Below the pieces are notes generated by a model. That model was not told where the DNA came from. It did not search any database and saw only the letters and a list, made by a program, of their open reading frames with translations. From Scolanthus callimorphus (lineage: Eukaryota; Cnidaria; Anthozoa; Actiniaria; Edwardsiidae): a stretch of DNA of 64,000 bases. Both the position numbers and the translations under genes were made by a program. The stretch spans positions 7,850,435 to 7,914,434 of the forward strand of contig CM066925.1 of the NCBI GenBank assembly GCA_033964015.1. The letters are read 5' to 3'. Positions 12,673 to 51,756 of this stretch are shown here, piece after piece (within the stretch, counting starts at the first letter, position 1; each line of letters opens with the position of its first letter).

Positions 12673-13690
12673 GGCATTTTTATTACCGCGTTTCTGTTCC
12701 GACGAATTTTCTGTAACTTAGCTCGATTTGAGATTACTTCAACTGGAATCGATTCCTGGAGTTTGAGCCAAAAAAAACCGGCAAATTTTTTTTCTAGTAC
12801 GACCTGAATATGAAATTAAGGCCTCACAAAAATTTTGATTGTGACTTCTAAAAAGTTTCCAAGAAGATCGGTTATTAATAACTGATTTATACATCATTAA
12901 AGTAGGATTTGAAAAAAGAATTATAACAATAGGGGAAAAGACACAAAAGTTATAGCCTTGAGTTTGGCGACGCAGATTTGCGCTCTAGACACAGTTGGGT
13001 GCATTTTGAATTTCGAATGAGTCACCTTAAACCCTGCTCACATCTTGGCATGCATCACAAATAAAAACGGATGGGGTGGACTCTCCTATTTTTTGGGCGG
13101 GGGTGCTCGTCGGCAACTTGGGACGAAAACATGGGACGAAATTAAGTTGCAAATTTTCTTCATCAAGTACAGTAAATGTATGGCAAAATCTCCCGAGAAT
13201 GGGGAGCCGCGCTCCCCTGCCCCCCGTAAGTTAGCGATTTTGTTTCTCACATGGGCGAATTATATTGAATATTGAATGGGGAGCGGTTTTCCCAAGTGGC
13301 ACTCATGCGAAACAATGTCTTTTGTTTTAATTCTTGAATGCACGAGAACATTCATTAATATGGATGTGTGGACAGATGGGTAAACAAACCACAGGGTCCC
13401 CACTAAGTGGAAAAGGTCTATTGACGCGGATATGAAGATATATTATCGGAATCATATCATATGGTGCTGTAGAAGAGTTCTTTATTTGTTATTTAGATTT
13501 TTATCTTACTTTTCTCTTGCTTTACTTGGCAAGACATTCTCGTTTCTCTATCAAAATTCTCAGTATTTTTACTGGCATATTCTTCAAAATTTAAGAGACA
13601 TATATATTAAGAAGGTAAACTTTCTGTTGCAATTTGTTTTAGATTGTTGTGAGTTTCGTTCTTTAATTTTACCGTACTACAGCCCATTGT
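12673..13690. other. no gene; fragments of repeats
   Basis: Contains the outer arm match at 13,044-13,068 and a partial relative of the CCCGGGGGGGACTCCC MITE near 13,070-13,110 (GGACTCTCC, GGGGGTGCTCGTC). The frame at 13,432-13,776 has no domain and runs into the minisatellite, so I do not call it. Confidence 0.5.
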
Positions 13691-16540
13691 TAAATAAAGT
13701 CCAGGTCTATGACATGGCCATTTTAGTTTTCAACCCCAGCAAGAGTGCTGTATATTTGATTAGTCTCATCAGTTGATAACGGTTATCTTATTTGAATAAA
13801 CATTGTTAAATATACTTTATTGGTACTAATTTTCGCGGGCACTTAATTTCGCGAAAAAAATCGACATATTTCGCGGGTCTTTATTTTCGCGATTTGGGTG
13901 CAAAATTATTTTCTTAGGAAATTAATTTTCGGGAAATTGGAAAAAAAAAACATTTTATCTCGAGAATTTATTATCATTTTTACACTTCTTATTGCTGAAA
14001 ATCATCACCTCATAACAAAACCAAACTATAGAAACCGCATCGTGTACCACAGGCATAGTCAAACACATTATCCTTGTGCTAACGTTCTTTGAAATTGTAT
14101 AATGCATATTTACATTGTAGCCATTTGTTCTTCATTAAATCGAGAAAAAACAAGAAATATGGGAGGGAATTAATTTCGCGTCGCTTTAAGTTCGCGATAT
14201 TTTTTAAATCGCGAAAATCGCCAAATTAAAGCGACGCGAAAATTAGTACCAATAAGGTAGTGTCACATAGCCATTTGTCTTCGTCCTGAACCTCAGCAGG
14301 AGTGTTGTATATTGGATTAGTCTCATCAACTGTGACGGTTATCTTATTGGAATAGTCATTGTTAAATATAGTCCTCAGGTGTGTCACGTGGTCATTAGTC
14401 TTCGTCCTGAACCTCAGCAGGAGTGCTGTATATTGGATTAGTCTCATCAACTGTGACGGTTATCTTATTGGAATAGTCATTGTTAAATATAGTCCCCAGG
14501 TGTGTCACGTGGCCACTAGTCTTCGTCTTGATCCTCAGTAGGAGTGCTGTATATTGGATTAGTCTCATCTTATTAGAATAGTCATTGTTGAATATAGTCC
14601 TCAGGTGTGTCACGTGACCATTAGTCTTCGTCTTGAACCTCAGTAGGAGTGCTGTATACTGGATTGGCCTCGTCAACTGTAACGGTTATCTTATTGGAAT
14701 ATAGTCATTGTTAAATATAGTCCTCAGGTGTGTGACGTGGTCATTAGTCTTCGTATTGAACATGAGCAGGAGTGTGTATATTGGATTTGCCTCGTCAACT
14801 GTAACGGTTATCTTATTGGAATATAGTCATTGTTAAATATAGTCCTCAGGTGTGTGACGTGGTCATTAGTCTTCGTATTGAACATGAGCAGGAGTGTTGT
14901 ATATTGGATTAGTCTCATCAACTGTAACGGTTATCTTATTGGAATAGTCATTGTTAAATATAGTCATCAGGTGTGTCACGTGGTCATTAGTCTTCGTCTT
15001 GAACCTCAGTAGGAGTGCTGTATATTGGATTAGTCTCATCTTAGGTCATCTTATTGGAATGTAGTCATTGTTAAATATAGTACTCAGGTGTACCCTGTGG
15101 TCATTAGTCTTCGTCTTGAACCACAGTAGGAGTGCTGTATATTGGATTAGTCTCATCTTATTAGAATAGTCATTGTTGAATATAGTCCTCAGGTGTGTCA
15201 CGTGACCATTAGTCTTCGTCTTGAACCTCAGTAGGAGTGTACTGGATTGGCCTCGTCAACTGTAACGGTTATCTTATTGGAATATAGTCATTGTTAAATA
15301 TAGTCCTCAGGTGTGTGACGTAGTCATTAGTCTTCGTATTGAACAGAGCAGGAGTGTGTATATTGGATTAGTCTTATCAACTGTAACGGTTATCTTATTG
15401 GAATAGTCACTGTTAAATATAGTCATCAGGTGTGTCACGTGGTCATTAGTCTTCGTCTTGAACCTCAGTAGGAGTGCTGTATATTGGATTAGTCTCATCT
15501 TATTAGAATAGTCATTGTTAAATATAGTCCTCAGGTGTGTCACGTGACCATTGGTCTTCGTCTTGATCCTCAGTAGGAGTGCTGTATATTGGGTTGGCCT
15601 CGTCAACTGTAACGGTTATCTTATTGGAATAGTCATTGTTAAATATTAAGTCCTCAGGTGCACCCTGTGGTCATTAGTCTTCGTCTTCAACATGAGCAGG
15701 AGTGTTGTATATTGGATTAGTCTCATCAACTGTGACGGTTATTTTATTGGAATAGTCATTGTTAAATATAGTCCTCAGGTGTGTCCTGTGGTCATTAGTC
15801 TTCGTCTTGAACCTCAGTAGGAGTGCTGTATACTGGGTTGGCCTCGTCAACTGTAACGGTTATCTTATTGGAATAGTCATTGTTGAATATAGTCCTCAGG
15901 TGTGTGACGTGGTCATTAGTCTTCGTCTTGAACCTCAGTAGGAGTGCTGTATATTGGATTAGTCTCATCTTATTAGAATAGTCATTGTTAAATATAGTCC
16001 TCAGGTGTGTAACGTGGTCATTAGTCTTCGTCTTGAACTACAGTAGGAGTGCTGTATATTGGATTAGTCTCATCAACTGTAACGGTTATCTTATTGGAAT
16101 AGTCATTGTTAAATATAGTCCTCAGGTGTGTCACGTGGCCACTAGTCTTCGTCTTACACCTCAGCAGGAGTGCTGTATATTGGATTAGTCTCATCATAGT
16201 CATTGTTAAATATAGTCATCAGGTGTGTAACGTGGTCATTAGTCTTCGTCTTGAACTTGAGCAGGAGTGCGTATATTGGATTAGTCTCATCAACAGTGAC
16301 GGTTATCTTATTGGAATGTAGTCATTGTTAAATATAGTACTCAGGTGTGTCACGTGGTCATCAGTATTTGTCTTGAACATGAGCAGGAGCGTGTATATTG
16401 GATTAGTCTCATCAATTATAACGGTTATCTTATTGGAATGTATTCATTGAATATAGTCCTCAGGTGTGTCACGTGGCCATTAGTCTTCGTCTTGAACATG
16501 AGCAGGAGTGCTGTATATTGGATTGGTCTCATCAACTGTG
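13690..16540 (-). repeat. 121-bp minisatellite made from the receptor's last coding block
   Basis: About 20 copies plus a diverged leftmost one. The full period is 121 bp, and some units are ~17 bp shorter because they lack AACTGTAACGGTTATC. On the minus strand each unit repeats the final coding block of the receptor kinase gene ([14 protein letters not shown], then VQDED and TAA) plus its 3' flank. The copy next to the exon is the real C-terminus. Because 121 is not a multiple of three, and each copy carries its own stop, the array cannot be read through as one protein. It is most likely 3' UTR or downstream DNA. Confidence 0.9.
13820..14252. mobile_element. MITE in the minisatellite, Tc1/mariner-like
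   Basis: Inverted termini TTGGTACTAATTTTCGCG are flanked by TA on both sides (13,818-13,819 and 14,253-14,254). Sub-terminal TTCGCGA motifs repeat. It separates the diverged leftmost unit from the main array. Confidence 0.75.
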
Positions 16541-16660
16541 ACGGTTAACTCCGTGTAGTCAGCCATGCTCATCAGGATATTGTCCAAGGTTTCTTTTAGC
16601 GCGGTGAACGTCGGTCTCTCGCCTGGGCTCAGTTTCCAGCAGCTTTCCATGACGTCATAT
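16480..16660 (-). CDS. last exon: kinase C-lobe end and cytoplasmic tail
   Basis: Opens with [18 protein letters not shown], the conserved tyrosine-kinase C-lobe helix with CW and RPTF. It continues through [20 protein letters not shown] to VQDED and a TAA at 16,480. The acceptor is TTCTAG. The start phase joins the exon at 18,003-18,099 (AT plus A gives Ile). NPIY is a PTB-binding type motif. The end of this exon is the source of the 121-bp array. Confidence 0.93.
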
Positions 16661-19600
16661 CTAGAATAGTGAAACCGCCAGAGGTAGAAAGTTACTCGAT
16701 GAGATTACTTTTTTCTGTACATCATGTACGTCGGATACCAAGACCTATGGCATCTCCGCTCTATAGGAGGATCCTTTTTTATAGTCTGTCAGCATTGTTT
16801 GGAATGAGATAACAAATAATCGGCAATGAATATCAATAGCGGAAAACCATTGAAGCCTGACTCAGAAAATTTGAAGATTGTACATTCAATTGTAACGGCG
16901 CAGTTAAATGTTCATTTTAGAGAGGACATGGGAGAAAATGCGAGTTAATGAACCTTTTGCCACACAGCAATCCACTCATTTTTAAAACCTTTCTCAGAGC
17001 CTACAAAACGTTATGAAACGAAATTCTACGGAATAGTAATTATTTGATCTCCGAGCATTTTTATGACATTTTTCAAGAGCTGAGAGGCTTTCTTGGGTAG
17101 CAAGAGGCTCATTAGCCCACATGTTTGCTGTAAATTGAACTTCCCGCAATGCGCTCATTACTCGAATGAAGAACGTCAAACTTTCTAATTACGCTTCATT
17201 CACCAGGCGCTATTGAAATTCAGAACAATTATTTTTGTAGCTCCGTTACGCTTGCTGATTTTCACGGATGCTTAAAATATGTAAACACTGACGTCACAAG
17301 ATATACGCCTTTATACAACAACACTAGCAAAACGCGCGCTCTGATTGGCTGACAGGCCGTGTGTTATTAGAGTACACACGCACGATTGACGTCAATACGT
17401 CATAGCGCGCGCATGCAGCAAAACTGAGTTTGAAATGCGCGCACTGTGTGAGCTCATTCATCTCTAGAAAAATCGCTTTTGTTGTTGTATAAAACAAATA
17501 GATCTCGTTTTTTGTGCGTTAAATACAACGAAATATTAGAACTTTTTAATGTGTTCGCAGGTGATCTTAAAACGACCTCGATTCTTTTGTTTTGTCGCTG
17601 TGATCATATAGCTTGATCTCACTCCAAAGGTTTGTGTGGGGTTTCTTTCGTATTACATTTTTGCACAATTTAGTTTCTATTTCATGAGCCTTTTGAAAAC
17701 GGATGTTTCTTGCTGTCATCAAACAACTAACAATAATGACAGCTAAAATCACATTACGTTTTTCTCACTCTGGGGAAGGGGGTCACATTCGTCTTTAATT
17801 CGCTTTGTGGAGGGTCAACGCGTTTTTGAGAATTGTTTGTTTTCAAATATAGTAGTCTTTGGAGGACTACCACTCGGGCCTCGGGGGTCGCATATTATTT
17901 TGACGAAGTGCTGACGGTACTAGCAGCTCTGCGAAGAACAATGTGCTCGCCATTGTATTGCTGTGTTCACAGTGATTATTTGTTTCCCCTCTGGATGCTT
18001 ACATTTCGTCTGGACATTCGCTAGGCTTCTCCAGTCTTCCGCCATTCTGGATGTAAAGCAATACTTGAGTATTGTCAAAAGCCGGATAGGGATTGCCACC
18101 TATTAAAAAAAGATATTCATTATTGGCCATATGTTGCTATGATGTATTATGCCTGTAAAGCTTTCTCTTGTCGTTCTGGATATAACGCAATGCTTGATTA
18201 TTGTCAAAAGCCGGTTAAGGATAGCCACCTATAAAAAGGGCACTCATTATTGACTAGGGGCAATTATTTAGGTCCAAGGCGGAATGGGCTATTGACAAGA
18301 AGGGCACAAGGGCGAGAGGAATGACCTTTCCCTCAGCATTGGGAAAACAAGTGACCTGAACAAAATTACCGGGGGAATACAGTGGACCGGCGGAATACAG
18401 GTAATCGTAAGCATCTTACCCATTGTCATGATCTCCCAAAGGGTGACTCCAAATGACCAACTGTTGAACAACGAGAGAACATGAGACAAAAGTATCACAT
18501 CTTGTTAGTACAGGATGGAGTAGATGAGGCAGGAGCTTGAAACAGCTGGAGCCTCATCCTGCTCCAAGGTCATTTTTGAAATTCGCACTTTATGAAAAAG
18601 GTTACGGTTACGGACTACCTTCGCGGTAATTTTCGTTAAAACGCAATAGTTTCGCGAACAAAACGTTGTATCTTGACAAGTGATATCTCATTTTAAAGCT
18701 TATTTCTTCTCCTCAACTATTATGAATAGTTTATTTCTTCAATTAACAAAAGATATTTTTTTAGGGAGTCCGACGCATCGGGTCAAGTTTCGATAGAGCT
18801 CCACGCACGCAAAAAGTAATAACTTGAAAAGGAGATCGAATTTTTAAAATCCTCGACACGTTTTTTTAGAACACATCTTAGGCAACGCTAATATTGAGTC
18901 AATAACGAAAAGAGCAAGTATTCGCGGAGGTTGGAACTCTAAAACGTTGAACTGATGCACCGGAAAGGGAGCTTCAAAAAAATTGTGTTTAGTAAAATTA
19001 AATGAAATTATATACCATAGTTTAGCCCAGGATATAAGCTTTAAAGTGAGGTATCACTTGTAAAGATTCGACCATTTAACCAAACCAAAGTACCCCGAAG
19101 GTAGACCATGACTTTAAGGATACCGTAAACCTTCGCGGGTAACCTTTGCACAAAAATTCTCTACGCGGCGCATTTAAATAAACCCCAATAAACTAGATAT
19201 CATTTTAAAGCTTAATAAACAAAGTTTATGATGATCGCTTTTTATCCTGTTTTTCGAATTCTGCCATAACGCGAAAAAAAAAAAACCCGACAAAACGGTG
19301 CGATTTAAATATGCAAAATGTTCATATAGAATTACGGCTTATTTGATGAGTTTCGGCCTTCGAAAAGTAATAAAAGTGCGAGAAATTAAAATATCGCCGA
19401 CACGCTTTTGAAGATCAATGTTTTTACTGACTGCTCGCCAAATTTGAAGGCAATCGTACAAATCTTTGTGGGCGAACATTTTGGGTCTTTCCTTTGCATC
19501 GGCAGCAAAATGAATACCGAGTTATAGCCATTTGTAGTTGTGTCAACATTTGAAGCGCTAACATCAGGAGAGCAAAAAAACGTGACACGATTGGCCAATT

Positions 19601-22600
19601 GGAGGCGAGCCTTCTCTGCGCGCGGGAAAGTATTACTGTGCTCAGATTTCATGTTGTGCTTGAGCTTTGGTACTCGTGGTAATCGCTATCTCTAACATCT
19701 TCGACCATTTCCAGCAACCAAATTTTGATAAATAATGGGCAAAGTGCCTCTTCAACGAAGAAAGCCAGGCAGGCACATGCCAGGAAGAAGCGCCAATTTC
19801 CTGACCCGAAGGCTAAGTAAACAAGAATAAAAGATTATAGCGGCCGAATCATGTAACGCAAAACAGTTGAAAACTAGATTTTCTTATTTTTCTTCGTGAA
19901 ATATAAGTTATTTTAATTTTCTTTTTTGGAATATTGAAGTTCCTACCCTAACTTATCGACTGGGATCATAGGCTTCCCAGGATCATTGAGCGAACTTTAG
20001 AGTTGATAGTTTGCAGTTTTATAGTGTCGCTGTGTGAAGTTTGACTGAGTTCGATGAGCGCTAAAGTACGAGTACCTACGAAAAATAAAAAAGTTTGAAA
20101 AATACCCTTATCTAGTCCTTTAGTACTTTAATAAATCACTACTACCATTTATTCGGTCAGAAATACACTTTTAAGCGAGTTTTAGCCAATTTTATTGCCA
20201 CCTCTTACTCTTACTATATGTTCTGGAAGGCCGAAAACTGCAAAATTCCGAACGCTCAGCGATCCACAAATTTCCCTCGATTTTTTTCCAAAATCATCGT
20301 CGCTTGCTCAAACAAACCTCGCATAATAAAAGTAAAACTATTCAGCTTTGTTGTTTACCTTTCTCGTGGAAATCAAACTCTCTCTGGCTGATATAAATGG
20401 CGAATCTTTCAGCCTCGTCCTTTGGTCCTGAGAGCAATGGCGGCCCCGGCAGTAAATCCCGTTCCAAAACACAAACCGTTGAGACATTTTTTCTCCCGTC
20501 GAGGGGTGGGCCAGACATTGTGTGAGGCTCTAGTCACTTCCCGTCCTAGACCCGGTAAAATCAATCAAATCCAACGATCACGTGCAAAAACGTTTTAACC
20601 GGGTCTAGTCACTTTCTAGCGTGTGACAAATCTCTCTAATAGGTATTTAGTGCACCTTCGTGTTCGTGGCACTAGAGTGGAGTGTACGCATGTACTTACA
20701 CATCGCTGGATGTAGTAAATTCCATGTCAGTAAGAGCCTAGCGTGCTACAATTCTCTCTAATAGGTGTATAGTGCTCCACAAGCATGTACTCACACATCA
20801 CTGGATGTAGTAAATTCCATGTCAGTAAGAGCCTAGCGTGCTACAATTCTCTCTAATAGGTGTATAGTGCACCACAAGCATGTACTCACACATCGCTGGA
20901 TGTAGTAAATTCCATGTCAGTAAGAGCCTAGCGTGCTACAATTCTCTCTAATAGGTGTATAGTGCACCACAAGCATGTACTCACACATCACTGGATGTAG
21001 TAAATTCCATGTCAGTAAGAGCCTAGCGTGCTACAGTTCTCTCTAATAGGTGTATAGTGCTCCACAAGCATGTACTCACACATCACTGGATATAGTAAAT
21101 TCCATGTCAGTAAGAGCCTAGCGTGCTGCAAATCTCTCTAATTGGTGTATAGTGCAGCACAAGAATGTACTCACACATCACTGGATGTAGTAAATTCCAT
21201 GTCAGTAAGAGCCTCCGGTGCCGTCCATTTGATTGGTAACCTCCTTCCTCTCCCGGTATGATAAACAGCCTCCTGATAAACACGACGCATCAAACCAAAG
21301 TCGGCGACCTTAGCGACAAGACCCTTGGACACCAGAATGTTACGAGCAGCGAGATCTCGATGAATCAAACCCTTGTTGGAAAGGAACTCCTACAGGTAGT
21401 AACGATAATAAGCAATTATTGGATGAGGTTTTTGTGATCTCTAGAATAAACAATGTCGAGACAGGTGGAATCAGGCGAGGCCGTTAGGCCTTGTTAATAG
21501 GGAAAGCGCTCTAGTTGTTCCATGATGCATTGCGCGCGTATCAATAATCAGCTAGCTGATTCTTGAACAATCAGCACGCCTGATTCTTGGAGACCCTCAA
21601 AGTGCGTGATTCCCAAAGTAAAGCGCGCGCTCTTAGCCAATCAGAATCGATATAGTGAGTACAATGTATAATAATGACAATAATCGAAGAGGTACAGAAG
21701 CTCGATAGCAATAGTAATGGCAAATCACAATAGTCACAATAGTAATAATTTGTCTGTGGGTAAACAACCTTTTACGGGGAGGTGAACTAAAACGTCCTTA
21801 ACTTTGCTCGGACCAGTGCCTAGATCCTCTGTGGTCACAGATGATTGAACCTCTTGGGTTTCTCGGGCTTTTCGTTTATAATAGATTCTTATGACGCCAA
21901 ACTACTGCACTTGTATTGCTGTTTCGTAGAATCCAGCCCTGTCCCTGATTTATCGAAATAGAAGAATGTTTTTTTTGCACCTGCTATCGGCCTGGGGAAT
22001 GAGCGAGTAGGCTTTGAGAGCTCACAAGGCATAAAGACGTTTCCTGAGATACCTAATGGACTAAAAATATTTGGTCTAGTTATTCTTCCCCACTACATAC
22101 CACAAAACAGCAATTTTCCTTGAAAAGCAAATGTACTTTATAATCGGTTTTACCGATATGAAGCTCCAAACTCAGTAAATATATAGACAAAGATATCCCT
22201 TATTGGGAACCACTAAATGGAGTACTCACCATTCCTTTTACAATCTGCCACCCAAAAGATGCAAGCTTTGTGACGTCAAACTCTGGGAATGTCTCTTTAT
22301 GTTTCCCAGGTTTCTTGACAGAACCAATTCTCTTCAGCATCGACTGGTACACATCATTGCCATTGTCATTGTCACGTTCGTCATTGCCATTGTAACGCTC
22401 GTCATTGTCATTGACATTGCCATTGTCACACTCGTCATTGTCATTGCCATGCTCGTCATTGTCATTGTCACGCTTCCTGTTGTAATATTTGCTGTTTTCA
22501 CGCTTGTCATTACCATTTTCACGCTCTTCTTGTTCCTCGTTTTGCTGGACAGATTCTTCATGCGAGGTGAGAGCAGAATTTCCTTCTTGATCCTGCTGCA

Positions 22601-25600
22601 ATTCTTCAATAACCTCGGGGTCAATGTCAACAGTCGTGCATGCTGTATGAGCCTCAGGCAAAATGCCAGTAAACCTTACAATCTTCCCGCTGCCTATATT
22701 GCTATCTTTTGTGTGCTGAGAATCAGGACAGGGTTCGTCCGCGTCTTCTTGTTGGTATGGCCTCTGAGTATGGTCTTTCTGCGTGTTGAAGTAGGGTCCG
22801 ATGCTCATATTGCTTTCTATCCTCAGATCAGCTCTGTCCGCAGCAATGTTCTTGTTCTCTGGAGTGTTTTTCTACAGAAAAAAAATTAAATGATTAGGAC
22901 GACCTACTTGGTAAAATATGTCAAAGTTGCCTATCTGGCTATTTCTAATCATGTAACTCAAAGATACTCATAGATACTTTTTATGATGTTGTCAAAAATG
23001 AGCAGCTCCTCTTTGGCTCGTTCTATTTTCCCTTTGTGTAGCTACTCTTACGTGTTCATATCGGTACTGGTGTGTCAAGGCGCCAAGACTTGCCCGACTC
23101 TCGCCTTGCGGGTATCCCGCTTTTACCGACAAAAGCCAGTCCCTATCTTAAGCTATAATAAAACCAATCCATCAATTCCAAATTAATTTCAGGCCTCAGA
23201 CAGATAATGTCAAACCTTTCTGACTGTTTTGAGCAATGTCAATAGGTCCCCATACTCGGCGAACTCCAGGACCAGACTTGGTGGATCTGACCTCGTGCAA
23301 TAACCAATAAAGTTCACGATGTTGGGATGAGATCCCACGTTTGCCATGATAACCATTTCTTTAAGAAACTCTGCTTTCTCGGCTTCACTTGCTCCTTCTA
23401 TGATTTGAGTGACAAAAAGGCAATCAGTGAATTGCTTTGTATTAGAGCAGGACCGTAACCATTTTTGGGTCCTGTCGTCGTTGAAGCGCTTGCAGTATGT
23501 AACAAAATCATACTAAACTTCTTCCGGCTTGTCCAACATAGCTCACTGAGAGTGCTTTGATATTTTTTAATCTTTCTTGTAAAAATTCCTTTATCTCCGG
23601 GTGAATCCTCAAAACCTCACCCACCTTTCTGGTGTGAAGGGCAAGAGTTTCTACTTTTCTCACTCATTGAAGGGTTTTGGAGAGCATCAATATATTCAAA
23701 ACTAATTCAAACAAGAATCGCTCACCATGCAATAAGTTAACTGCCACCTCTCTACCTTCCTTTCCATGAACTTCCCTCTCTCTTGCCGTCTTTTTGAGAT
23801 ACTCTTTCTCGTGTAAAATGGCTTTAAACACAAAACCAAACGCTCCTTGGCCAATGTCATGCTGGTATTTCAGCAAGTCTGGGACTATCTCGTACTCGTC
23901 CTTGCTTGCCCTTGATTTCCTGAAATCGAACTTTCTATAGTCAATCAACTTCTTGGTTGTTTTTTTTCTAATTAAAAGGACAATTGAAACGTTTTAAAAA
24001 ATAATGGCGACGTGAGAGCGTCTATCACTGCTATTATTTGTGGGAAAATTGGACAGACATCGCCCAATTCATCACAAAAGTGTAGCATTCACAGCCATTG
24101 GATGTTCCCCTTTCCCTTTGAAGCGACAGGGAAGTTTCACACTTGAATCTCTCAGGTCTTCAAGGAATAGTATAGATTTAGCATGGCTCTCTTTTATGTT
24201 TCGATAAGAAACTTCGCTTCCATACTTCGCTTCTATTCTCCTTTTCCGTCCTTGTGTGTGTTGTAGTTTTCTGTGTCCTTGATTTTGTTGTGTCACTGCG
24301 TAATTTGTAATAACTAAAACCACCTCGATTAGCTATGCTACCTGTGGGGTGAGTTATTCATGTAAAAATATTTCTACAAAGGAAATAAAATTGAAAATTG
24401 AATTGAATTGAATTGAATTTGCAACGCACCTTTTCCTTTTCTTTACAAGAAAACACACTCCAACTGTTGCAGCGATCAATACAACTGAAACAACTGTCGT
24501 GCCAACGATCACTGGAAAAAAAAAATTGCGTCGAAAAGCAAAGTAATGCCATCTTTGTCAAAAATTCATTTGGAATTTCATCTGCTTATTTGAAGCTATG
24601 TAAAATATATATTATGATAAAGTGTAGAAAACACATATTATATCTTTAAATTGCTCAATAAATGATTTTGAAGCTTATTCTTCACCTCAACTATAGAATC
24701 TTCATTTCTTTCATTTCATTAAACTTAAACACGGATTTTTTTTTAGCGATTTCCCTTTTCGCCAATCTTTTCGAATACATAATCAATATTTTACAAAGAA
24801 ACGAAAGCCAGGGTCGTGGGGCTCGATTCCCTGATCATTTTTCTCTCCTTTCAACGAAAATACTCTATTCTGTGTGTGAGTCCGTCGCAATTTCTCTCGA
24901 ACTAGCATTGCCTGAAGAAATACTTTAAAGCCACCATTAGCATCTCGTCATAACTATTCATTTTATTGCTCACATTCACCATTCCTGCAATGCTACAAAA
25001 TAGCTCGAGTACTCAACAATTACCTGGGTCAACGCCCATGACTTCCTTGGAGTCTGAAACAATATAGATTTTTCAAATGTGCGGGTTTCAAGACGAACAG
25101 ATGAAAATGGAGATGGGAAGGGAGAGTTAACGGATCAAAAGGCGGAAACAAAAAGGGAGGGTAAAGTGGTCTAGCAGGTGTAAAGCTAAGAAAAGAGCAG
25201 CGAAAGGGTAAGGGAGGGAACGGTCTGAGTGGGGGTAATAGCAACCTCGAATTGGGGAAGGGACCTAACTGACCAACAGAAGGAAAAGGGAGAAAGAGGC
25301 AAACAGGAATCTGGGAATTAATAGGAATTTTATGTCAGATCGACGGATTTCTAAAATCAGTTGTATGCCTTACCAGTTAAGAAAGGTATTGGGTCACTCC
25401 ACACCCCTTCACCGACTCTCGTTCGCCCGGCAACCATCGCCGAATATCTCGTGCTCGCGTCTAACCTACTAAGTAAGGCATTTGTCCACGAGACATGTTC
25501 AAACTCCCAGGAAGTGTCACGTTGTCCTCTATACTTGACTGTGTAACCCAGCAGGACACCGTTGATGCCAGATTCAGGGAGTGGGTCCCATTTCAAATGT

Positions 25601-25942
25601 GCTGTTGTTTGAGTGTAATTACTGACACGGAGATTTTTGGCTTGACGTTCGGGGCTGAAATGTACGTAAAATATTTTCTAGAGAGGGAAATGTATCAGAG
25701 GGAATAAATACAACTTCAGAAAAAGACGTGGAGAAGACGCTAAAGCTGGGGCTTGTAGAGTTTCCACTAGTTTATTGCATGTTTGCAGGGAAGCACGGTT
25801 GGTCCAGCGTTACGGCGTTGGATCTCTCACCGCTGTGATCCGGGTTCGACTCCTGGCCGGGACAGAGGAAATTTTCTTTCTGTTCGGGTCTCGGTCGAAA
25901 CTGGTTCATATTGTGAGTTGAACTTTGTTCTACTGTGTTTCA

Positions 25943-25974
<32 letters not shown>

Positions 25975-28900
25975 CGTCTCGCCTTTCTACCCTACCCAGT
26001 TCCAGGGGGGACGTTAAAGAACCACTGGGGACGTAACAAACCCTCTGGCAGTGACCACCCTCAGTGTCTGTGCTTAAGACCGCTTGGCTGCCAGTGGCGC
26101 CGTTGAGACCCAACGCAATTCAGCTTACGAGCTGCGAGTTTGGGGAGTCGGTCGCACATACGTTTTTTTTTTTTTTTTTTACGGTAATTTACAGCGAAGA
26201 ACTACAGTGACGCGCGGTAATTATCAATATCACTACGTCATTTCATGACAAAAGATATACCTATTAGCATCAAAAGGTCATGAAATGTTCAAGAATAATT
26301 AGCAACAAACGTATACTTTCGATAATATTTTTAGTATATATTTGTATATATAAGGCAAAATGGTCGAAAAGCTCAATTCATGCAACTTTATTTAGGAAGA
26401 AAGCAAGCAAAAACAAGGAAGATCACGGTAGAACAAAGGTTATGAACAAGAAGAGAAGTTAAGAAGCACCATTTTTATGAAAAAACTTGTTTAGGTGGAG
26501 CCAGTTAACATAGACTTTTTATTAGTTTGTAGGAATTCAAAAATACGTTGACTTTTTTATAGAATTCGGGAAACTACAGACGTATCAGGACACTGGGCCT
26601 CGGTGTATAACCTGAATAAGAATATTATATGAAAAAAGGTTATATAATATGAAATATCCATCCCTTGGTACATACTTCCCTCCTTTGTCCTCACAGTGAT
26701 GCTAGACGCGGGTCCATCTCCTTTACCAGAAAATGCTCTTACCTATCAAGAAATAAAATACAGCTAAATGCAGATGAGGAGCAGCAAAACAACTGTCAAA
26801 ACGTTCACCATACGCAGACTTTGAGGAAAATAATATTTATCGGATTTACCACAAACGTTTTATCCTTAATCTGACAAATTATTCTAGCCGTGAAGTGATG
26901 AATGGTCTTCTCTCTTTTAGTCAAATTTTATTACATATTACATACAATTTATATCATTTTTTATGTAAATGATAGATCACACGGCTATTATGAAAACCAG
27001 CTATGCTGATGAAACTACCGTGTTAAAATAAAAGATCTATCCTATCCTATATCCGTCTTTCTTGACTGCTTTTTGCCAGAAATGGAACATTGGGAAATTT
27101 GACCGTAGTGATGAATAAATAATTCCACTTCTACAAGAATACTAAAAGGCGGTAAACAATAATAAAACAGTCCTAAGAAAAAGAACGCTTAAAAACAGCA
27201 ATGTCTTAAACGAGAAGTTCCGAAAAATATTGTCATCATATTTGACATATTCTGCCACCTAGGGTGAAATTCCCAACATTTTCCCAGTCAGTCAGCAGCA
27301 AACGTAGGCGAGGGGCGGGTTTTCGGAGGAACAGAAGATATGCGGAACTAGTCGGAGAAGTATGAGTTTGGTGCATTACCTTGATTGTGTAGTTCGTGTA
27401 AGGCTTCAAGTTTTCAAGGGTGGTCTCGGTTTGACTTACAGACTGCGGTGGCATGGCGTCTGTTCTTGGTTCGTCTGTTCTTGGTGTATTCTTTGGACGA
27501 ACATACGGTAACCTTTATCTACTCCCCGCCACTGTTTGATAGTAAGCGGATCCCAGGCGATACGAATGGTTGAGGATGTGACGTTGAGAAGCCTTAGTCT
27601 GTTTGGTGAAGAGACTGGGGCTTTATAAATAAATAAACAGTAAATGAGATTGATTTAATTTGAATCTTCACTAAAACATAATAAGACTCACGGTAGTAGA
27701 CTGATCAACAAGGCAGTCAGCCATAGTGCTTTTCCAAATGGTGGTTCCACATCATTCAGCACAAGAGCTGCCACGTATTCTGATTCCCTTGCTTACCGGC
27801 TGGAAGCCGAGGTTTTTCCGCATATACACCTTAGAAAATGGACTAGATACTTCTCTATTATTCTCGTACAAAGATCTTTCCGACCTTGCTCGTCACTAAA
27901 ACATAATAAGACTCACGGTAGTAGACTGATCAACAAGGGAGTCAGCCATAAGTGCTTTTCCAAATGGTGCTTCCACGTCATTCAGCACAAGAGCTGCCAC
28001 ATATACTGATTCCCTTGCTTACCGATTGGAAGCCGAGGTTTTTCCGCACATACACCTTAGCAAATGGGCTAGGTACTTCTCTATTCTCGTACAAAGATCT
28101 TTCCGGCCGGCCCGTCAGCTCTTAAGAGAGTCTTAAGAGTGTCAACAGCTATTTGAGGGCCTAAAACGGCTGAAATAGCGCACGTACCCACCTTTGTTTT
28201 CTACGCCCTACAAGTAATTGTGAAGCAAACAACTCTTATCTTCTTAGACGCATGCATCAGTGGTTGTTACAAGAGCCTACCCCGCGAGGTGAGGTACGAA
28301 AATGTTTTTTTTTCTTCGGATAAGCTGATTATCGATCTTTTGTCATACCATGCCGGGGTATGGATGAGACGTTGTCGTTGTCATGAAGACAGCACGAGCC
28401 TTTACAGCAGAATTACCCCATTTAAAAAAATCCTTCAAACAGGAATACGGTCATTTATGGTTTCAAACCCGTTACTCTGTTTTCTGTCTTACTTAAGATA
28501 CGCCAGGAAATAAACATCTGAAATTTAAAATGAGGCCATTTCGCCGTCACGAAGTCCCTTCATCCTTTTGATGTCTGTAACATGACAATATTTTTTCGCG
28601 TTTCTTGCGCATGCTGTGAGTCCAGTGACAAAGGAATTACATAACTCTGCTGATCTGAGAGACCTATCTGAAATCCGTTCTGTGGTTATACGTACTGTCT
28701 TCCTCTGTTGGTGCAGTATACCACTTGCTCCAAGGACCGTCTCCTGCTGACGTAGATGCTCGTATAGAGAGCGAGTAGTTTGTATAAGCTGTCAGTTGTG
28801 AGAAGGTTTGATTTGTGATCGAGCCATTTACGGAGGCGTTCAATACCTATAAACAACTTGAAGTTTTAATAGGAAAGAACGACTCTGTGTAGAAGGTGGA

Positions 28901-31900
28901 AACTTGCTACTTACCTCTTTGCTTTCGAAAGCACTTTCCTTAAAATGGAGATTGTACTTGTGGACTTCGCCGTTAGTAGTATGTGGTGACAAGGGCATCC
29001 ACTTTGCGAACAGAGTATTAGGACCCATACTTCTGAAGTTAGTCAGATCCGGTGCGCGAGCTGGAACTAGAAAAAGAAGCAGCGAAACGTTATCTGCTTT
29101 AATTGTGAACAGCTCGTTTTGATTGACGTCATTTATGAACAATAGGAACGTGACTATGCTTTAGATAGCCATTTATCCAGGTATAATTTTCCAGGTTTTA
29201 TCTCTATGGAAGCGTCTTTTGTCTTATATCCCACTCACTGCGGGCTTAGAGAGTCTATAAATTGGCCCTTGAACAGCGCATACATATGGTTCATCCTACT
29301 ATACTTATGTGAATCCTCGTTCTATGGGACATTGGGAGAGATTTATACGGAACACATTATAATGAACCATATATGATTTAAAAACCGGCGCGATCAAGTC
29401 GTCTTGGCTCAGATTTTGTTCTGCCGTTAGGTATACATGAAATGATTAGGGCGCTACCTACACTGACAGCGTGTTGATCACGTGAAATTACGTTTTACGA
29501 ACTCGTAATCATGACAAAGCCTTTAAAATTTCATTAGGGAATATCGACATTGTGTTGATTTGGAAGTTAACAATTGTTGGTAATAGTTTTTGGATATCAA
29601 AAGTTTAACCAAAAGCTCGTTAGTTCGTTAGCAACACTGGTATATTGCGTGTCCTGTTCATTTCAAAGCAGGGACAATATTTAGTCGCACGCTGCGTACC
29701 ACTTGCAACAATGGCCAGAGGCGTTTCTCGGTGTAAACTGTGTTCATAATTACCTCCTTCTTTTGTTGTGACCAATTTGCCTGGGGACGCCTTCCCCGGT
29801 CCTACGGTGACAGCTGCTACGCTTACATTGTACTTCGTGTGAGGTCTCAGTCCATGCAGAACCTTTATCATTGTACTGTTGTTAGCTATTGCAGTTTCAT
29901 TTCTCCATGCGTCCAAAGGCATTGATACATTCTCAGTGATGTAGATTAGGTAGTACCTCAGAACGCCATTAAGAAATTCCTGGGGAATTTCCGTCCATTC
30001 TACTTGTACTTCAGTTGCGGTGAGAGCTGTGATACTTATGTTAGACGGGTAAGTATAGGGTACTGTGAAGCAACAAAAAGTGTTAAATGGGAAAAAGATC
30101 CAAGGTGTCCTTTAACTCCTTTGCCAAAATAGCCGGCATTGCAGCTGTGCTTTAAGCCCTGGCTAAACTAGGACACATGTAGCGCACAACATTGTAGCCG
30201 GACACATGTTTCCTCTATGTTTCGCAGTTTAGCCACGCGAGAAACATTGTCGCGCGCGACAAATTTTGTAGCCGGGACACAAAGAAATGTTTCTTTGCCA
30301 GTCAAGAAACATTTGATGTGTCCGAGACACACGCGTGCGATGTTTCCTAGTTTAGCCACTCGGGGAAACATGCAGGACACAAATGTTGCGCGCTACATGT
30401 GACAATTATTCATCTTATAATTTTTTTTTTCTTTTTCGTAAGTTCTAGGACCTCAGTATTCAAAGGAGCCCATTGTATCATAATATATAAATCAGGGGCG
30501 TAGCCAGCACTTATGAGAGGGGGGGGTTCCAAAATTCAAAAAATAAAAAACTCCACATAGATCTCGGGGAAAAACTAGCGTTTGAAGAAATTTGCTACAT
30601 TTTATAGGAGCTTTTATTTGTTGTCTATTAAATATTTACAATTTTAGTAGTAAGTCGGCCCAGAACAGAGGCGAGGGGGGGTTCCGCTGCGGGAGAGGGG
30701 GGTTCCGGAACCCCTGGAACCCCCCCCCCCCCCCTGGCTACGCCCCTGTAAATGTGCCACTTTTACTGTACGTATGTTCAATATTCAAGACGGCTTTCTT
30801 TTTTTTTACTTATTAGTTTTTGGTGCGACCTGAAAAACTAAACAGACTTTGACCGCATTATCGCGAGCTAGATTTGAAACACCTACAGTGAAATTTTTCA
30901 ACAGCTGACTTTGACAAGGCAATTTGCAAAACTTGGGAAAATATTTGTGCCTGTGCTTACTGAACCAAGGACCTCCTTACTTGACATTACTTGGTTTATT
31001 TGCAGAGACGACCGTGGCTACGGTTGGCTTTTCGCACCTACCTCCTTCTTTTGTTTGGAAGTCAAAAATACATCGGCTTGTCGGCCCTTCCCCTATGTGG
31101 TTGACGACAGTCATTTGCATGGAATAGTTAGTATAGAGCTTCAAGGTCGGTGCGTTGCCTTGGTAACAGTCACTGTAGTTTTTACTATTGTAATTGAAAT
31201 ACTCTGTGAAGTTGTATGTTATTATTTGTAAACTTGAATTTCCTGTTTTTGTTTCCCAAATGTAAAGTTTGAACTCTTGTAATTCACCATAAACGGCATC
31301 TATGTCGATGCACCAGCTAAAAAACGATCTTCTCGACGTTTGGTGTATCATATGAGCGAAGGTTACTGCTCCGGGCACTGAAATACAACAAAACAATTAA
31401 AATATGTTACAACCATGTATGTAATCTAGCAATCTGATTGGCGAATTTGCTGTGGTAAATTATTTTTGTTCCCAGGTTGCTTCGCGCGCTTCACGCTGAA
31501 GGCACATTTTGTAAAATTCATTTTTTTCTGGCACTAGTGCGCATGCGTGGGATTTCATATAAATTCGATGACTTGAACCCAGCATATTCGAACCCCAATT
31601 CCATCGAAAGCTGCGGATCATGTAGAAGCTATCGGAAGGCGCCTCAGTGAAAACAATGGAAACAAAAGAATAGAACGAGAACACAATAGAACAATGAGGT
31701 GCATCAAGACAATAGCGTTAGATCTTACGAGCAGCTGCTTCATAACTGAATGACGTATCACATTTCAAAACCGTTAATATTCTTGTGCAAGATAACATTT
31801 TCTCGTCCTCCACGGGAAATGAGGAGATGGATGTAGAAGTCGTTGTAGAGAACCTGTTTACCATCCATGTTATTCCCTATTACAATTTGCTCTGTTGAAG

Positions 31901-34900
31901 AAAAGGGTACGGCATTCCAGTGCGGATATAAGGGCTGTGCAATAAGCAAATCTGTATTTTTAAAGAATGCTCTCAGACTTGATAGTCACTTTTTAACGCC
32001 CCCATTGTTATAGATACGGCGACTTGAGCTGCACCACGAAAACAATTTTGACCTACCATCTTCTTTAGTTCGCTCAGACGTTATTCCAAGAAGTTCGGCT
32101 CTCTTAGCAGAAACTGCTCTGACTTCGATCTGGTACTTCATATATGCTGTGAGGTTTCGAATACTGTAAGATGCCTTGAAGCTATTAGACATTGAGAGAT
32201 CCTCATTTGTCACATTTATAAACCGTATATTGTTTTCACCCTTAAGGGAATAAATTAGCTTAATTATGAACGTGCTTGACAAGTTTGTCTTCTTCCAGGT
32301 AATTCTGATAGAATGCGGTCCTAATACCTCTGCCTTGACATTTGATCGAGCACCTACGCCTGTGAAAAGAGAAAAAAAAAACAGCCTCCACCATTTGATC
32401 ACAGTACGGCAGCCTTATCAAGAAATTCATTCGATTGAGCAATATTTGTCCTTGGATTTGGAAAGGGGAAAATAAATGAATGCTACACACCACAAATGGC
32501 CACCTAAATACATAATTTTCTTTAAGAAATCGCTGTTCTTTGGTTGCGTTTTAAAGTTTTGAACGCAGCCTAAATAAAGAAAATTATGTATTCAGTTGGC
32601 CATTTCTTGGTCTCGTTTGAGCCGATTTGCCTCATTTTTTGCATCCGATTTTCTTTCCCCTTTGTCATGCAATATTAGTGGAATAAAATTGGAAATTCAC
32701 GATTTTTCAAATTTATGACGTCACACTTGAGTACTCTATTGTGAGTAGTATAGTAGGACCCAAATTAGCCCAATTTTTGGTGGTGAGCACGGTGGTGAGC
32801 ATGCTGGTGAGGAGGATGACGTCACAGATAAGGATGGTGGTGAGCATGAGAAGGGTGAGCCTGTTAGTCTGTGATGACGACGAGGAGGACGACGTCATCC
32901 TGTCCAGAATGTCACCAATTTAACAGTATCCGCTGCAAATCTGAACTCCATTCAATTGATGCTCAATCAAGATCTGAGTAACATAAAGCGCTGGTTGTTG
33001 ACAAACAAGCTTAGCCTCAATGTAGTCATGACGGAATAAAGGATCCAAGCAAAGACTTACTAACACCATACCCAATATTAATATTAATGGCAATGCAATC
33101 GAAAGAGTCAAATCCGCTAAATCACTAGCTGTCATTATTTGACGAGAATCTTAGTTGGGAAGAGCACATTAATATTATTTCTAAGAAAATCGCTTCGGGA
33201 ATTGGGGCGCTAAAACGAGTTCGTTCCATTAACGACATTAGAAATGTTCTAGAAGACAATCATTCAGCCACACTTTGATTACTGTTCTCCCGTTAACAAA
33301 TAAAACACAGTTCCCGTGACTGCACAGGCTTATGCAAACCGAGATGTGGTTGGGAGAATTCGAGAGTAGATCAGTGGAAACACGAGCCGCAGGCGAGTGT
33401 TTGCACCTGCTCGAGAATTCTCCAAACCACATCGAGGTTTGCATAAGCATGTGCAGTCACGGGAACTGTGTTTTATTTGTTTTATAAAATAATTATCTAC
33501 AAAAATAAAATGCGCGTGGAATATAGATAGTAAGTTTTTGAAGCGGATGAGACTCTAAATTCTCCATACAGATGAAAAGGCTGCATCAGCCAATCAGAGC
33601 GCTCCTTCTATCGCATGATTTGTCAATCTCTGATCTCTAATCGGCCTGCAAGTTTTCTGAGATGGCGGCAAACGAAGTGGTTTTAAAATGACATTCGTGG
33701 CTTAAAATGGAGCCTATCTTCCATTAAAAATACAAAATAATTATGACAGAAGGCGAACAGAAGACTTTAGTACAGAAGCCGTTGCTTTACATATGTGTGT
33801 TGGCCGAGTTTCTTCGTCTATGAAGCCGAAACAAAATCTCTCCCGAGCAACAACTTTTTGCAGATTTGGCAGCGGAACTATGATGTTGATGCTTTAGCAG
33901 CGAAGAGCGAATTTGAACGCTTTATTTACGGCACACATGGCAAATAAGAAAGGAATCCACCTATTTGCACCTTCTGGGCTTGTCAAACATTTAATACTCG
34001 AGGATCCAGAGGCAGAATTAGTTAAGATTTACAAAACGAGACTGCCGAACTGACTTGTGACTGTCGAACTGTGTGCCGAACTCAGCTCAGGTAAAGAAGC
34101 GAAAACAATGTTATTTTACGATCTCATGCTTTATGTGAATTCAATGTGCTTTGTCAAATGTCTATCCAAGTAATATTATATTCTCAATAAAGGTTTTTGC
34201 CTAAAACATGTTACTTTTTTCTATCACTCACGTGTTACGTCACAACCATGTTTGCACAGGGAAATGCAAACATGGCTCTAAGCCAATCAGAGCGCGCGTA
34301 CTATCTAAATTATTTTATAATTTGGGATAATTGTAGCAAGACTCGATCGAGTAAATTGCAAAAACTACAAAATAGGGCTGCCCGTATTTTTACGTTTTCC
34401 ACGTATGACAGCTCTGAAGTGCTGGGGAAGCTAAACTGGAAAAGAATTGCAAAAAGACAGATGGAGACGAAGTGCATTTTGATGTTCAAAATATTGAACG
34501 GGCTAATGCCCGATTATTTGACAGCTCTGTTCGTTGATCGCTCCCGCGATGTTATCAATTTTACTGCTAGGGATTCAACTAATAAATTGGCGCTACCAAC
34601 ACCCCGTACAAACTTTTTAAAGCGAAGCCTTAGATACACAGGAGCTTCGCTGTGGAATAGCTTAGGGTCCGAATTGCGACAAGGTGAGTCCCTAAAATAA
34701 TTTAAATCGACACTGTTCCGAGAAGCAAAGTGACTCGAGTCATACAATTATAATGTGCACTCATCGTTTATTATTTGTAAATTTATTATTATGTACATAT
34801 TATTGAACGGTTTTTATGAAAAACAGCTGTATATAGTCTGATAGAAATCCGTGGGTAAATAAAGTTATATGTATGTATGTAACCGGGAATCACAAAACAC

Positions 34901-37900
34901 CGAGTTTGGAATCGAGTCTGAGTTGGAGTTGGATACCGAGTTGGAATTCGAGTTGGAATTCGAGTTGGAATCCCAGTCAGAATCCGAGTTCGGTCTGTCA
35001 TGCTGGCCGACAATTTGATTTATCCACTCATTTGACAAAAGATAGGGCTTGAAGTGTAGATTTTTTTATTCCTTGCCCTCGCCGTGAGCCGAGGCGCAAG
35101 GAACAACTCAAAGCGCATTTTGAACTTTAAATCCAGAAGGATTGCTGAGTTCGTAAATCGTATAAATCGGATTTATATTGGCAGTCTAATAAGAGCACAT
35201 TGATATTACCTCACTTTCATGGTCATTTTTTGGCTCTAACCTTGTACTGCAATTTTCGCTCGTACAATTGTCTTCAAACTTGAATGACAAAAAAACGAAG
35301 GTTGAATGACCCCAAATCCGAAATTTCAGAAAAAACTCCTGAAGATTTTTCGCACAGGAGGGACTTTTTTAAAAATACCACTGTTAGAATATCGGCTCGC
35401 AATAAGCAAATGCGGCCCTTAAAAATAAAGTCAAACAAATAGTTAAAAGCACCATTAGTCGAGGATATCCAGAGCTCAGAAATATCAGACCATTTTTGAC
35501 GCGACGCGAGCGAGTTAAAAAATGTTTGAAATACGCGTTTCATTTTGTGGGAGTCACCTTAAGCGAGTTTGATCACCAACTCGGGTCCAAAAGGCGAGTT
35601 ATTGAAAAAAATTCAACACTATATTTATAGGAAATGAATTGCTATACAGTAGAACCCCGATTTTACGATCTTCGATCTAACGTTATCCACGATTTTACGA
35701 TATCATTTCTGGGTCCCGGCAAAAAATAAAAAGGATGTTACTAAAACGGGGAGCGGGGACCCGGGGAGCGGGGATCCGGGGAACGGGGACCCGCGGTCTG
35801 GATACGAGTTTCGATGGATTTTTCGCGAGAACCAATACGTCCTTACTGCATAGATGTGCAAAAATGAAAATAACAGAGAATTGTTTCTTTGATGTGAGAA
35901 AAAGAGAACCGTTATTACGTTGGGGATATTTTCATCGGCATGTTTTCCTTCTTCTTGTTAAAAGAAAAGCTTGCAAAGAATATTATGGAAACCCAAGAAT
36001 TATGTTGATGAGAAAAGGTATATTGATGTATAGGAGGATGGAAATAACGTGACTTCGCACTACTTCGTCTTAACATATGAACACAAAATGTGCTAGGGGG
36101 TGTTAACAAGACCGCACTCTCCTCGTTCAACTGCCAGACGAGCCAGACAGTCAAGTACTATCAGCCATCCTCTGATTTCCTGGATATAGAAACATGAGTT
36201 CTCAAATAACCTTGAGTGGGACACTCATGAACAAAGAAGAGTAAAACTTTTCGAAAAGCAGCTGTGGCCTCTATGTTTTGTGTCATTAACCTCTCTCCAG
36301 TGAGACTGAAATCAATCATCACAAATTCAGTGCCCCTGACTGCATTTAAAATGGTCTTTTAGCACGAAAACCGGTAAAACGGCTTGCATTTCTTCGAAAG
36401 GAATTTTCAATCGCGAACGGCCGCCATGTTTTTATAATGCAAAATGGGCAAAACCGCTGAAAACTCGTCTCCAGACCGCGGGTCCCCGTTCCCCGGATCC
36501 GCGCTCCCCGGGTCCCCGTTTCCCGTTTTAGTAACATCCAAATAAAAATCAGATAAAACACAACGCCGATCTAATGGGATGTTACTCAAACGGGGAACGG
36601 GGACCCGGGGAGCAGGGATCCGGGGAGCGGGGACCCGCGGTCTGGGGACGAGTTTCCAGCGGTTTTGCCCATTTTGCATAATATAAACATGGCGGCCGTT
36701 TGCGAGTGGAAATTCCTTTCGAAGAAGTGCCAGCCGTTTTACCGGTTTTCGTGCTAAAAATACCATTTTAAATGCAGTCAAAGTCAAGCAGATGAATTTG
36801 TGATGATGTGTGCGACGGATTTCAGTCGCACTGGAGAGAGGTTAATGACACAAACATGAGAGGCCACAGCTGCTTTTCTAAAAGTTTTACTCTTCTTTGT
36901 TCATGAGTGCCCCACTCATGGTTATTTGAGAACCAAGAGAAAATGATATATATCATTTTCTCTTGTGCGAACTCATGTTTCTGTATCCAGGAAATCAGGC
37001 TTGTGTTGCTTTGACTGTCTGGCATGTTAAGATGAAGTAGTGCGAAGCGTGTAATTTACACCCTACTATACATCATAGACCATCATACCAGTATACCTTT
37101 TCTCATCAACATAATTCCTGGGTTTCAATAATTTTCTTTGAAGACTTTTGCTTTAACAACAACAATGAAAACATGCCGATGAAAAGATCCCACTTGTCAA
37201 CTACTAGGCTGAGACAACTTGCTCTTGCAAACGTTATAAAGGTTTTCCTTTTCTCACATCAGAGAAACAATTGTCTGTTATTTTCACTTTTCTCGAATAA
37301 GTGTGGTTTTCCACGAAAAATCCATCGAAACTCGTCCCCAGACCCGTTCCCCGGGTCCCCGCTCCCCGTTTTAGTAACATCCGATCTAATGATACTCGGT
37401 CCAACGATATTCTCGATTTTACGATGGTAATCTTGGGACCCAAGCGTCAATGTGTTCCAGCTACAACAATATAGAAAATATGAAGTAGAACAGAAAGTTT
37501 AGCAATCATACGATTTCCAAACCAATGTCATATGAGTGGTATCCTCGTCTTGCAATAAATACCTTTATAAAGTGAAACTCGCAGCATTACAATGACTAAT
37601 GCAATACAGTCAGCCTTTTTTCATAGATTTAATAGTAATCCATGGCCAAGCGTAAATTTGTTCCTGTAATATGATTTTACGCATATTATGCAAAAAACAT
37701 CTATTTTGTTTGAGGAATAGTGAATTTTGATTTTTGTTTCCAACTCGGTATCCAACTCGGATTCCAACTCGGTATCCAACTCGGTATCCAACTCGGTATC
37801 CAACTCTAACTCGAACTCGATTCCGAACTCGGGGTTTCTGTTCTCCCTATGTAACCAGGCTCAACTGCTCACACGCTGTCATTCTATTGTCTCCAAATGC

Positions 37901-48270: not shown

Positions 48271-48301
<31 letters not shown>

Positions 48302-51627: not shown

Positions 51628-51756
51628 CTGAAAATAGAAATCATAATTGTCAACTCTTGACTTGAATCGACGATCCGGACCTTGCTTCGCTGGGCTCACT
51701 CGTAGAATATTGAAAAACGCATCCATGTGTCGCGACTAGAGAACGATATAAACACT

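Follow-up and report, generated by a model that had tools for sequence, protein, structure and literature searches.

Can a tandem array born from the last codons of a gene rewrite those codons in turn? The question is raised by a locus of the sea anemone Scolanthus callimorphus, which we analyzed in a 64-kb stretch (C15:7850435-7914434, hereafter the window) of a 597-Mb assembly. Here the 3′ end of an FN3 receptor tyrosine kinase gene, encoded on the minus strand, borders a minisatellite composed of copies of its own terminal coding block. Comparison of the related gene copies in this assembly leads us to propose that gene conversion and unequal exchange have probably replaced some of the terminal codon sequence of the receptor with sequence from this minisatellite.

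A 121-bp array at the end of the receptor gene

The repeat unit comprises the last 26 codons of the receptor, the stop codon and about 40 bp of 3′ flank, and 20 copies lie beside the true exon. Tandem Repeats Finder delimited a period of 121 bp with 16.6 copies (14255-16196) and a period of 122 bp with a further 2.9 copies (16197-16547). An nhmmer search with the unit located 21 places in the window, all in minus-strand orientation. The true exon (16462-16566) is followed by 19 copies that adjoin it (14260-16461) and by a single diverged copy (13704-13814); no further copy was found elsewhere in the 64 kb at E<=10. The true exon is the first repeat, at the high-coordinate edge of the array. 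Both programs agree with the original prediction, made from the letters of the window, of a roughly 20-fold repeat of the terminal coding block with a 121-bp period and the true exon at its edge. This head-to-tail arrangement, with a 121-bp period and 20 copies beside the exon, is that of a minisatellite. It cannot be translated in a single frame as a coding minisatellite would be, since a stop occurs in 67 of 74 units and the 121-bp period is not divisible by 3.

Mean identity among the window units was 0.89 (range 0.76-1.00). The same prediction had every unit retaining NPIY and TAA, which proved too strong: NPIY is present in only 16 of the 20 window units (61 of the 74 units in four arrays) and a stop within the stop columns in 17 (67 of 74). 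The looser NPxY motif occurs in 18 window units and in 67 over the four arrays. A continuous tail frame, defined as nine residues, NPxY, ten residues and a stop, is found in 6/20 window units, 39/74 units of the four arrays and 0/2 in the two-copy genes described below. Unit length varies as well, with 121 bp in 26 and 105 bp in 11 of the 82 repeats aligned over six gene copies, a set that includes the six exons.

An element with inverted ends (13813-14259) splits off the most distal unit, and its end motifs recur in the related gene copy at C15:8.26 Mb. A second, different inverted-end insertion interrupts the array on contig C192, near C192:117.1-117.5 kb (ends placed by eye). The window array region also contains 10 CACGTG boxes, three of them within the longer GTCACGTGAC.

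Genomic distribution and origin of the array

We searched the genome with 721 bases of exon plus array and with the terminal exon protein; all counts from these searches are among the matches listed. The nucleotide query gave 26 matches, 24 of which fall at six gene copies: the window, C15:8.26 Mb, C15:6.13 Mb, C192, C9:3.24 Mb and C7:14.48 Mb. The remaining two (44 and 53 bp) are exons of remoter C9 paralogues at 17.30 and 17.35 Mb. The protein query gave 51 matches, comprising 43 at the six copies, two at the C9 paralogues and six weak ones (C5, C10, C12) that are 30-55% identical and start in the kinase part; the terminal exon matched itself at 100% and the five other gene copies at 88-95%. 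The two C9 paralogues end in ...SMADYTQLTADA and in ...SMADYTQLSADG, and the 1.1 kb read there contains no NPIY and no array. The tail-block matches listed sit at this receptor family's terminal exons, and on this ground we rejected a dispersed repeat or mobile element as the identity of the unit. Two observations that would have counted against a coding origin, an array older than or unrelated to the exon and a unit present at unrelated loci of the assembly, were both absent among the matches listed.

By nhmmer, the copies besides the exon number 20 in the window, 26 at 8.26 Mb, 17 at 6.13 Mb and 11 on C192, some of them partial, and the C9 and C7 genes hold the exon plus one degenerate copy each. 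In these two genes the degenerate copy is followed by TTTAACAATG/GGCTGTAGTA (breakpoint at the slash) and by a distal flank shared with the window and 8.26-Mb copies; the 6.13-Mb array likewise breaks off at TTTAACAATG. The junction lies at an imperfect microhomology between exon CATGGCTG/ACTAC and 3′ flank CAATG/GGCTGTAG. Because C9 and C7 retain exon plus one copy with the common distal breakpoint, the first step appears to be preserved there and the larger arrays would be expansions; the two-copy state is, on this comparison, the primordial state. It also upholds the earlier suggestion that the terminal coding block seeded the array. Homologues have tails of similar form, such as MPYIKLTADESQPYY in P0180, and the tail block is therefore likely to be an old receptor tail. 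The minisatellite is genuine and exon-born.

The exon tail conflicts with the gene body

The window and 8.26-Mb copies differ at 9/81 tail positions, compared with 3/99 in the rest of the exon and 6/299 in the last 300 bp of intron 6 (Fisher p=0.001 against the intron, 0.04 against the rest of the exon). In C9/C7, the two-copy pair, differences fall at 0/81, 0/99 and 12/288 positions of the tail, the remaining exon and the intron, respectively.

Informative sites in the body exons favored the tree (window, 8.26 Mb),(6.13 Mb, C192) by 13 to 2, with 10 supporting sites at the end of E3, two in E6 and one in the E7 body, and both opposing sites in E4. This count leaves out the intron windows, some of which align poorly between lineages (100 for and 3 against with them). 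The tail codons yielded 0 sites for the gene tree and 7 against it, or 0 and 11 with the flank included; sites 18, 66, 68 and 71 unite the window with the 6.13-Mb copy, and sites 35, 39 and 56 unite it with C192. In approximately unbiased tests the body rejected the alternative trees (<0.001) and the tail rejected the body tree (9.6e-7). In the arrays concerned, the unit share of the alleles was 95-100% for 18A, 75-100% for 35T and 39A, 100% for 56C and 95-100% for 71T. This comparative evidence, good but drawn from short sequence, suggests rewriting in several gene copies, and the tree conflict together with the tracts described next supports the earlier idea that exchange could alter the tail itself.

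With C9/C7 as outgroup for polarity, the 8.26-Mb exon looks nearest to the ancestral tail of the array genes. The window exon has mostly unit-type alleles from position 35 to past the stop. The C192 exon carries a differing tract at about positions 11-63 and then returns to the sequence it has in common with the 8.26-Mb exon, and the 6.13-Mb exon differs from about position 66 through the stop. At 6.13 Mb a shortened-type unit (110 bp) separates the exon from a flank that, in the 8.26-Mb and C192 copies, comes immediately after the exon. The tract on C192 resembles gene conversion, and the change at 6.13 Mb resembles the gain of a unit.

Several observations weigh against rewriting from the array. 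The tail is short, with 12 variable coding sites of which 7 are informative, and the Kishino-Hasegawa and Shimodaira-Hasegawa tests on it were only marginal (0.07 and 0.08). The flank sites adjoin one indel and hence are not independent, and the two E4 sites also conflict with the gene tree. Of the 28 combinations of exon and conflicting coding site (seven sites), 20 have the exon allele in units of the same array; 56T and 71C occur in no unit of the arrays concerned, and we read them as probable ancestral exon alleles; 18T, 35C and 39G are missing from the own units in some copies. The alleles 76G and 77T are private and occur in no own-array unit, and the exon combination GATGAGACC occurs in no window unit of the 82-repeat alignment. 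Exons are on average 79-85% identical to the units of their own array (best 85-90%), which gives no sign of a recent wholesale replacement. Part of the mosaic might also stem from exon-to-exon conversion among gene copies, and assembly error inside the arrays is possible in the one assembly used.

Constraint acts on exon tails rather than units

Over 74 units, diversity at codon positions 1, 2 and 3 was 0.128, 0.067 and 0.121, and that of the flank was 0.108. Position 2 is lower and position 3 shows no excess, with no sign of selection on unit codons by this measure. The ratio of nonsynonymous to synonymous differences per site (pN/pS) was 0.25 for the four exon tails and 0.67 for intact units (0.47-1.51 by array), the latter computed on the 40 of 76 units with a usable intact frame, 26 of them distinct. 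Only 31 of 4984 random unit quadruples, one unit per array, were as low in pN/pS as the exons, and NPIY is kept in 6/6 exons. The units thus appear to be without codon constraint and the exon tails constrained, and we saw no sign in the sequences of a function for the units. At 0.25, the pN/pS of the exon tails does not indicate selection for diversity at the expressed tail. Among the four array copies, pS was 0.12-0.30 in the tail and 0.02-0.08 in the body.

Putative haplotypes differ in array size and tail

All nine sampled pieces of C192, a 125-kb unplaced contig, are collinear with C15:6.024-6.146 Mb. The two differ by 614 mismatches in 49,279 aligned bases (1.25%), counted over 74,999 C192 bases with non-collinear rows and the C192 array stretch left out. 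C192 is most simply explained as the other haplotype of the 6.13-Mb locus. On this inferred haplotype status, within one assembly, array size would differ between alleles (11 versus 17 copies), as would the E4 array described below (9 versus 8). The tails differ at 11/81 nucleotides, an excess over the 614/49,279 background (p=7e-9), over 34/2242 near the gene with rows below 90% identity and both arrays left out (p=2e-7), and over 2/99 in the same exon (p=0.003). The two genes encode different tail peptides.

Four sampled pieces show collinearity between the 8.26-Mb copy and some 38 kb of the window (14.3-52.1 kb). A probe from 8.10 Mb, between the window and that copy, had no near-identical partner among the best 40 of 2349 candidates (best 93%). 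A segmental duplication is therefore likelier than a duplicated haplotype for this pair, and the probe result argues against a simple 390-kb tandem.

The mRNA end and splicing into units

The first AATAAA after the stop (15748) is the only one within the unit series; three more lie in the inserted element, and past the array an ATTAAA at 13667 precedes the AATAAA at 13486. Since such motifs lie both inside and beyond the array, the mRNA may or may not contain it.

We listed eight in-frame AGs upstream of NPIY, six of them in the 19 adjoining copies (five units). Their pyrimidine fractions in these copies were 0.38-0.56, compared with 0.63-0.81 at the six real acceptors. In all frames, 27 of 130 array AGs were at least as pyrimidine-rich as the weakest real acceptor (fraction 0.625). 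A usable acceptor does not precede each unit, as mutually exclusive alternative exons would need. Splicing of E6 to a unit in the tail frame is unlikely, given how few and weak these AGs are and that the kinase would lose its end, and on the same grounds of few and weak in-frame acceptors we rejected the units as spliced terminal exons.

A proposed mechanism and its alternatives

In the scenario we favor, the process began with a local tandem duplication at the 3′ end of the receptor gene that took in the last 26 codons, the stop and some 40 bp of flank. In the ancestor of the four array copies this duplicate would have expanded to 11-26 copies, an expansion indicated by comparison and attributable to unequal exchange. 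Since the array starts with the true exon, conversion and unequal exchange could pass the exon edge, as the mosaic sequence suggests, and unit sequence would have replaced parts of the exon tail, plus the 3′ flank in two copies. With units donating to the exon tail, the minisatellite would passively supply variation to the terminal codons and the 3′ flank; where such dead copies overwrote parts of the real tail, related copies in one assembly would come to encode slightly different tails. Selection on the expressed tail would maintain NPIY and a low pN/pS.

The excess divergence of the tail might instead have arisen without any exchange. A neutral downstream minisatellite derived from the exon end, combined with relaxed constraint or a mutational hot spot in the tail, would accord with units free of codon constraint and with the highly variable tails of related receptors. 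Such an account does not predict that conflicting alleles often match local units, in tracts; synonymous sites of the tail are raised as well, and the two-copy pair C9/C7 shows no excess, so that we regard it as unlikely. Conversion between the exons of sister genes rather than from the array is a slightly stronger, though still doubtful, candidate for the mosaic. It draws on 56T, common to the 8.26-Mb and 6.13-Mb exons, and on 71C and a flank common to the 8.26-Mb and C192 copies, with 56T and 71C in no unit of those arrays. These two alleles are more simply retained from the ancestral exon, the replacing alleles 35T, 39A, 56C, 71T and 66C/68T are all present in units of the same array, and the body exons show little such conversion (two E4 sites).

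Other accounts would give the array a role or a foreign origin. The NPIY motif is one we take to be of the PTB type, for adaptor docking, and the array could be imagined as a standing library of tail variants that rewrites this docking end, with individuals differing and the diversity useful, for example in recognition or immune signaling; we hold this to be improbable, and any benefit of tail change is speculation. We consider it very unlikely that the units serve as alternative terminal exons or switch the mRNA end, giving isoforms with different tails. The in-frame AG of some units would join E6 to a unit tail, 27 of the 130 all-frame AGs reach 0.625, and one window unit contains AATAAA; yet the in-frame AGs fall short of the real acceptors in pyrimidine fraction (0.38-0.56 versus 0.63-0.81), the end of the kinase domain would be deleted and unit codons are not conserved. 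The scan of units for acceptors proposed with the original prediction likewise does not favor spliced alternatives, with an in-frame AG in 5/19 adjoining copies and weak pyrimidine tracts. Least credible of all is a mobile or satellite family that landed by chance beside the gene: inverted-end elements are indeed inserted in the array, but the unit occurs only beside this receptor family's terminal exons among the matches listed, and the exon's own codons form part of it.

The receptor gene and other repeats in the window

A single open frame runs over seven kinase exons with GT-AG introns and stops at TAA (16480-16482). The kinase matched PF07714 in a Pfam search (E=5.2e-85) and contains HRD and DFG, as expected of the PK_Tyr_Ser-Thr domain of a receptor tyrosine kinase. 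Among five upstream open reading frames, Pfam identified FN3 in four and D8C_UMOD-like in one. At the catalytic VAxK lysine site, which lies at the end of E1 (about 23726-23741, minus strand), the window copy has VAVN, compared with VAVK in the four other copies read (8.26 Mb, 6.13 Mb, C192 and C9); judging from this substitution, the window copy is possibly a catalytically impaired receptor. Relatives high in the protein match lists include Oculina, Montipora, Porites and Exaiptasia (stony corals and a sea anemone) and many other animals. No close orthologue was found among the best 120 of 5929 and the best 120 of 3830 protein matches (identity <=56%, partial query), and a search through the kinase insert gave 48 candidates, none significant. 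Within that insert, a degenerate coding repeat of NDNDE type (22354-22474) varies in length among gene copies, and the C9 and C7 copies give two successive matches to part of the insert.

A second exon-seeded array, with a 95-bp unit, consists of the last 38 nt of E4, its GTGAGT donor and the intron start; the final copy is longer and has GTAAGT. Copies, including the exon end, number 6 in the window, 2 at 8.26 Mb, 8 at 6.13 Mb, 9 on C192 and 1 each in C9 and C7. As the latter two hold a single copy, the E4 end is repeated only in the four tail-array genes of the six.

Elsewhere in the window, a 122-bp repeat (51756-51999) has two copies, and the stretch collinear with it at C15:8.30 Mb holds several others. 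One 40-bp repeat array occurs in opposite orientations at 4856-5033 and 7005-7158, about 2 kb apart, resembling the ends of a mobile element. A 27-bp array of about 15 copies (54948-55378) has open frames on both strands.

Table 1. Positions of the receptor exons, repeat arrays and candidate signals in the window
Feature	Position	Strand	Basis
Kinase exons E1-E6	18003..23993	-	Splice sites, open frame, Pfam; E1 ends at 23726, 5′ limit approximate
E2	23397-23216	-	Splice sites and open frame
E3, kinase insert	22871-22230	-	Splice sites and open frame
E4, ends ...SSDV	21175..21389	-	Continuous frame
E5	18460-18420	-	Splice sites and open frame
E6	18099-18003	-	Splice sites and open frame
E7, terminal exon, stop TAA 16480-16482	16480..16660	-	Frame continuous over seven exons
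Duplicated part of E7, last ~26 codons and stop	16480..16557	-	Alignment of 82 repeats
Upstream receptor exons: D8C_UMOD-like near 51.3-51.6 kb, FN3 series	25357..51640	-	Approximate model; Pfam and by-eye reading
19 head-to-tail 121-bp copies	14260..16461	-	Tandem Repeats Finder, nhmmer
Element with 42-nt inverted ends (83% complementary), inserted in array	13813..14259	.	Inverted repeat
Distal, most diverged copy; end TTTAACAATG/GGCTGTAGTA is the duplication breakpoint	13704..13814	-	nhmmer
Second exon-seeded array, 95-bp unit	20688-21214	-	Tandem Repeats Finder and comparison of copies
AATAAA inside unit (AATAAAATAACC), candidate early polyadenylation signal	15743..15748	-	Motif scan
First AATAAA past array, candidate polyadenylation signal	13481..13486	-	Motif scan

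Comparison with known systems

One genome holds a graded series, from two paralogues lacking both tail and array through two sisters in the two-copy state to four genes with arrays, and so provides built-in controls. This would make testable to what extent a neutral minisatellite can alter a protein end, how selection filters the imports and whether array size is of consequence for a signaling receptor. In the titles and abstract openings listed by our literature searches, we found no report of a receptor whose terminal codons had given rise to a minisatellite, nor of such an array donating to its own exon.

The repeats of CEL are translated as protein. The CEL variable number tandem repeat (VNTR), a minisatellite in a gene's last exon (PMC12185230), resembles the receptor array as a tandem array at a gene end. 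The receptor array, in contrast, follows the genuine stop, most of its units contain a stop of their own, and its unit was copied from the codons that end the receptor. The zinc-finger array of PRDM9, termed a coding minisatellite in PMC3890296, is similar to the receptor tail in that repeat turnover alters an expressed protein segment; its repeats encode zinc fingers, whereas in the receptor only the first copy is read. The E4 array, a tandem duplication at an exon-intron border that repeats the exon end and splice donor, recalls intron gain by tandem duplication (PMC4974935). Unlike intron gain, the E4 array comprises 2-9 copies inside an existing intron, with no new intron shown.

Silent-cassette systems such as VSG, pilS and vlsE offer a further parallel, in that an expressed receptor tail would be fed by unexpressed partial copies, a donation that the tracts and tree conflict point to. 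Programmed switching and selection for diversity belong to those systems and are not claimed for the receptor array, whose donors are adjacent direct repeats derived from the gene's own end. At this locus, a repeat array descended from the final codons of a gene seems to act back on the coding sequence of that same gene, in what would be a natural example of such feedback.

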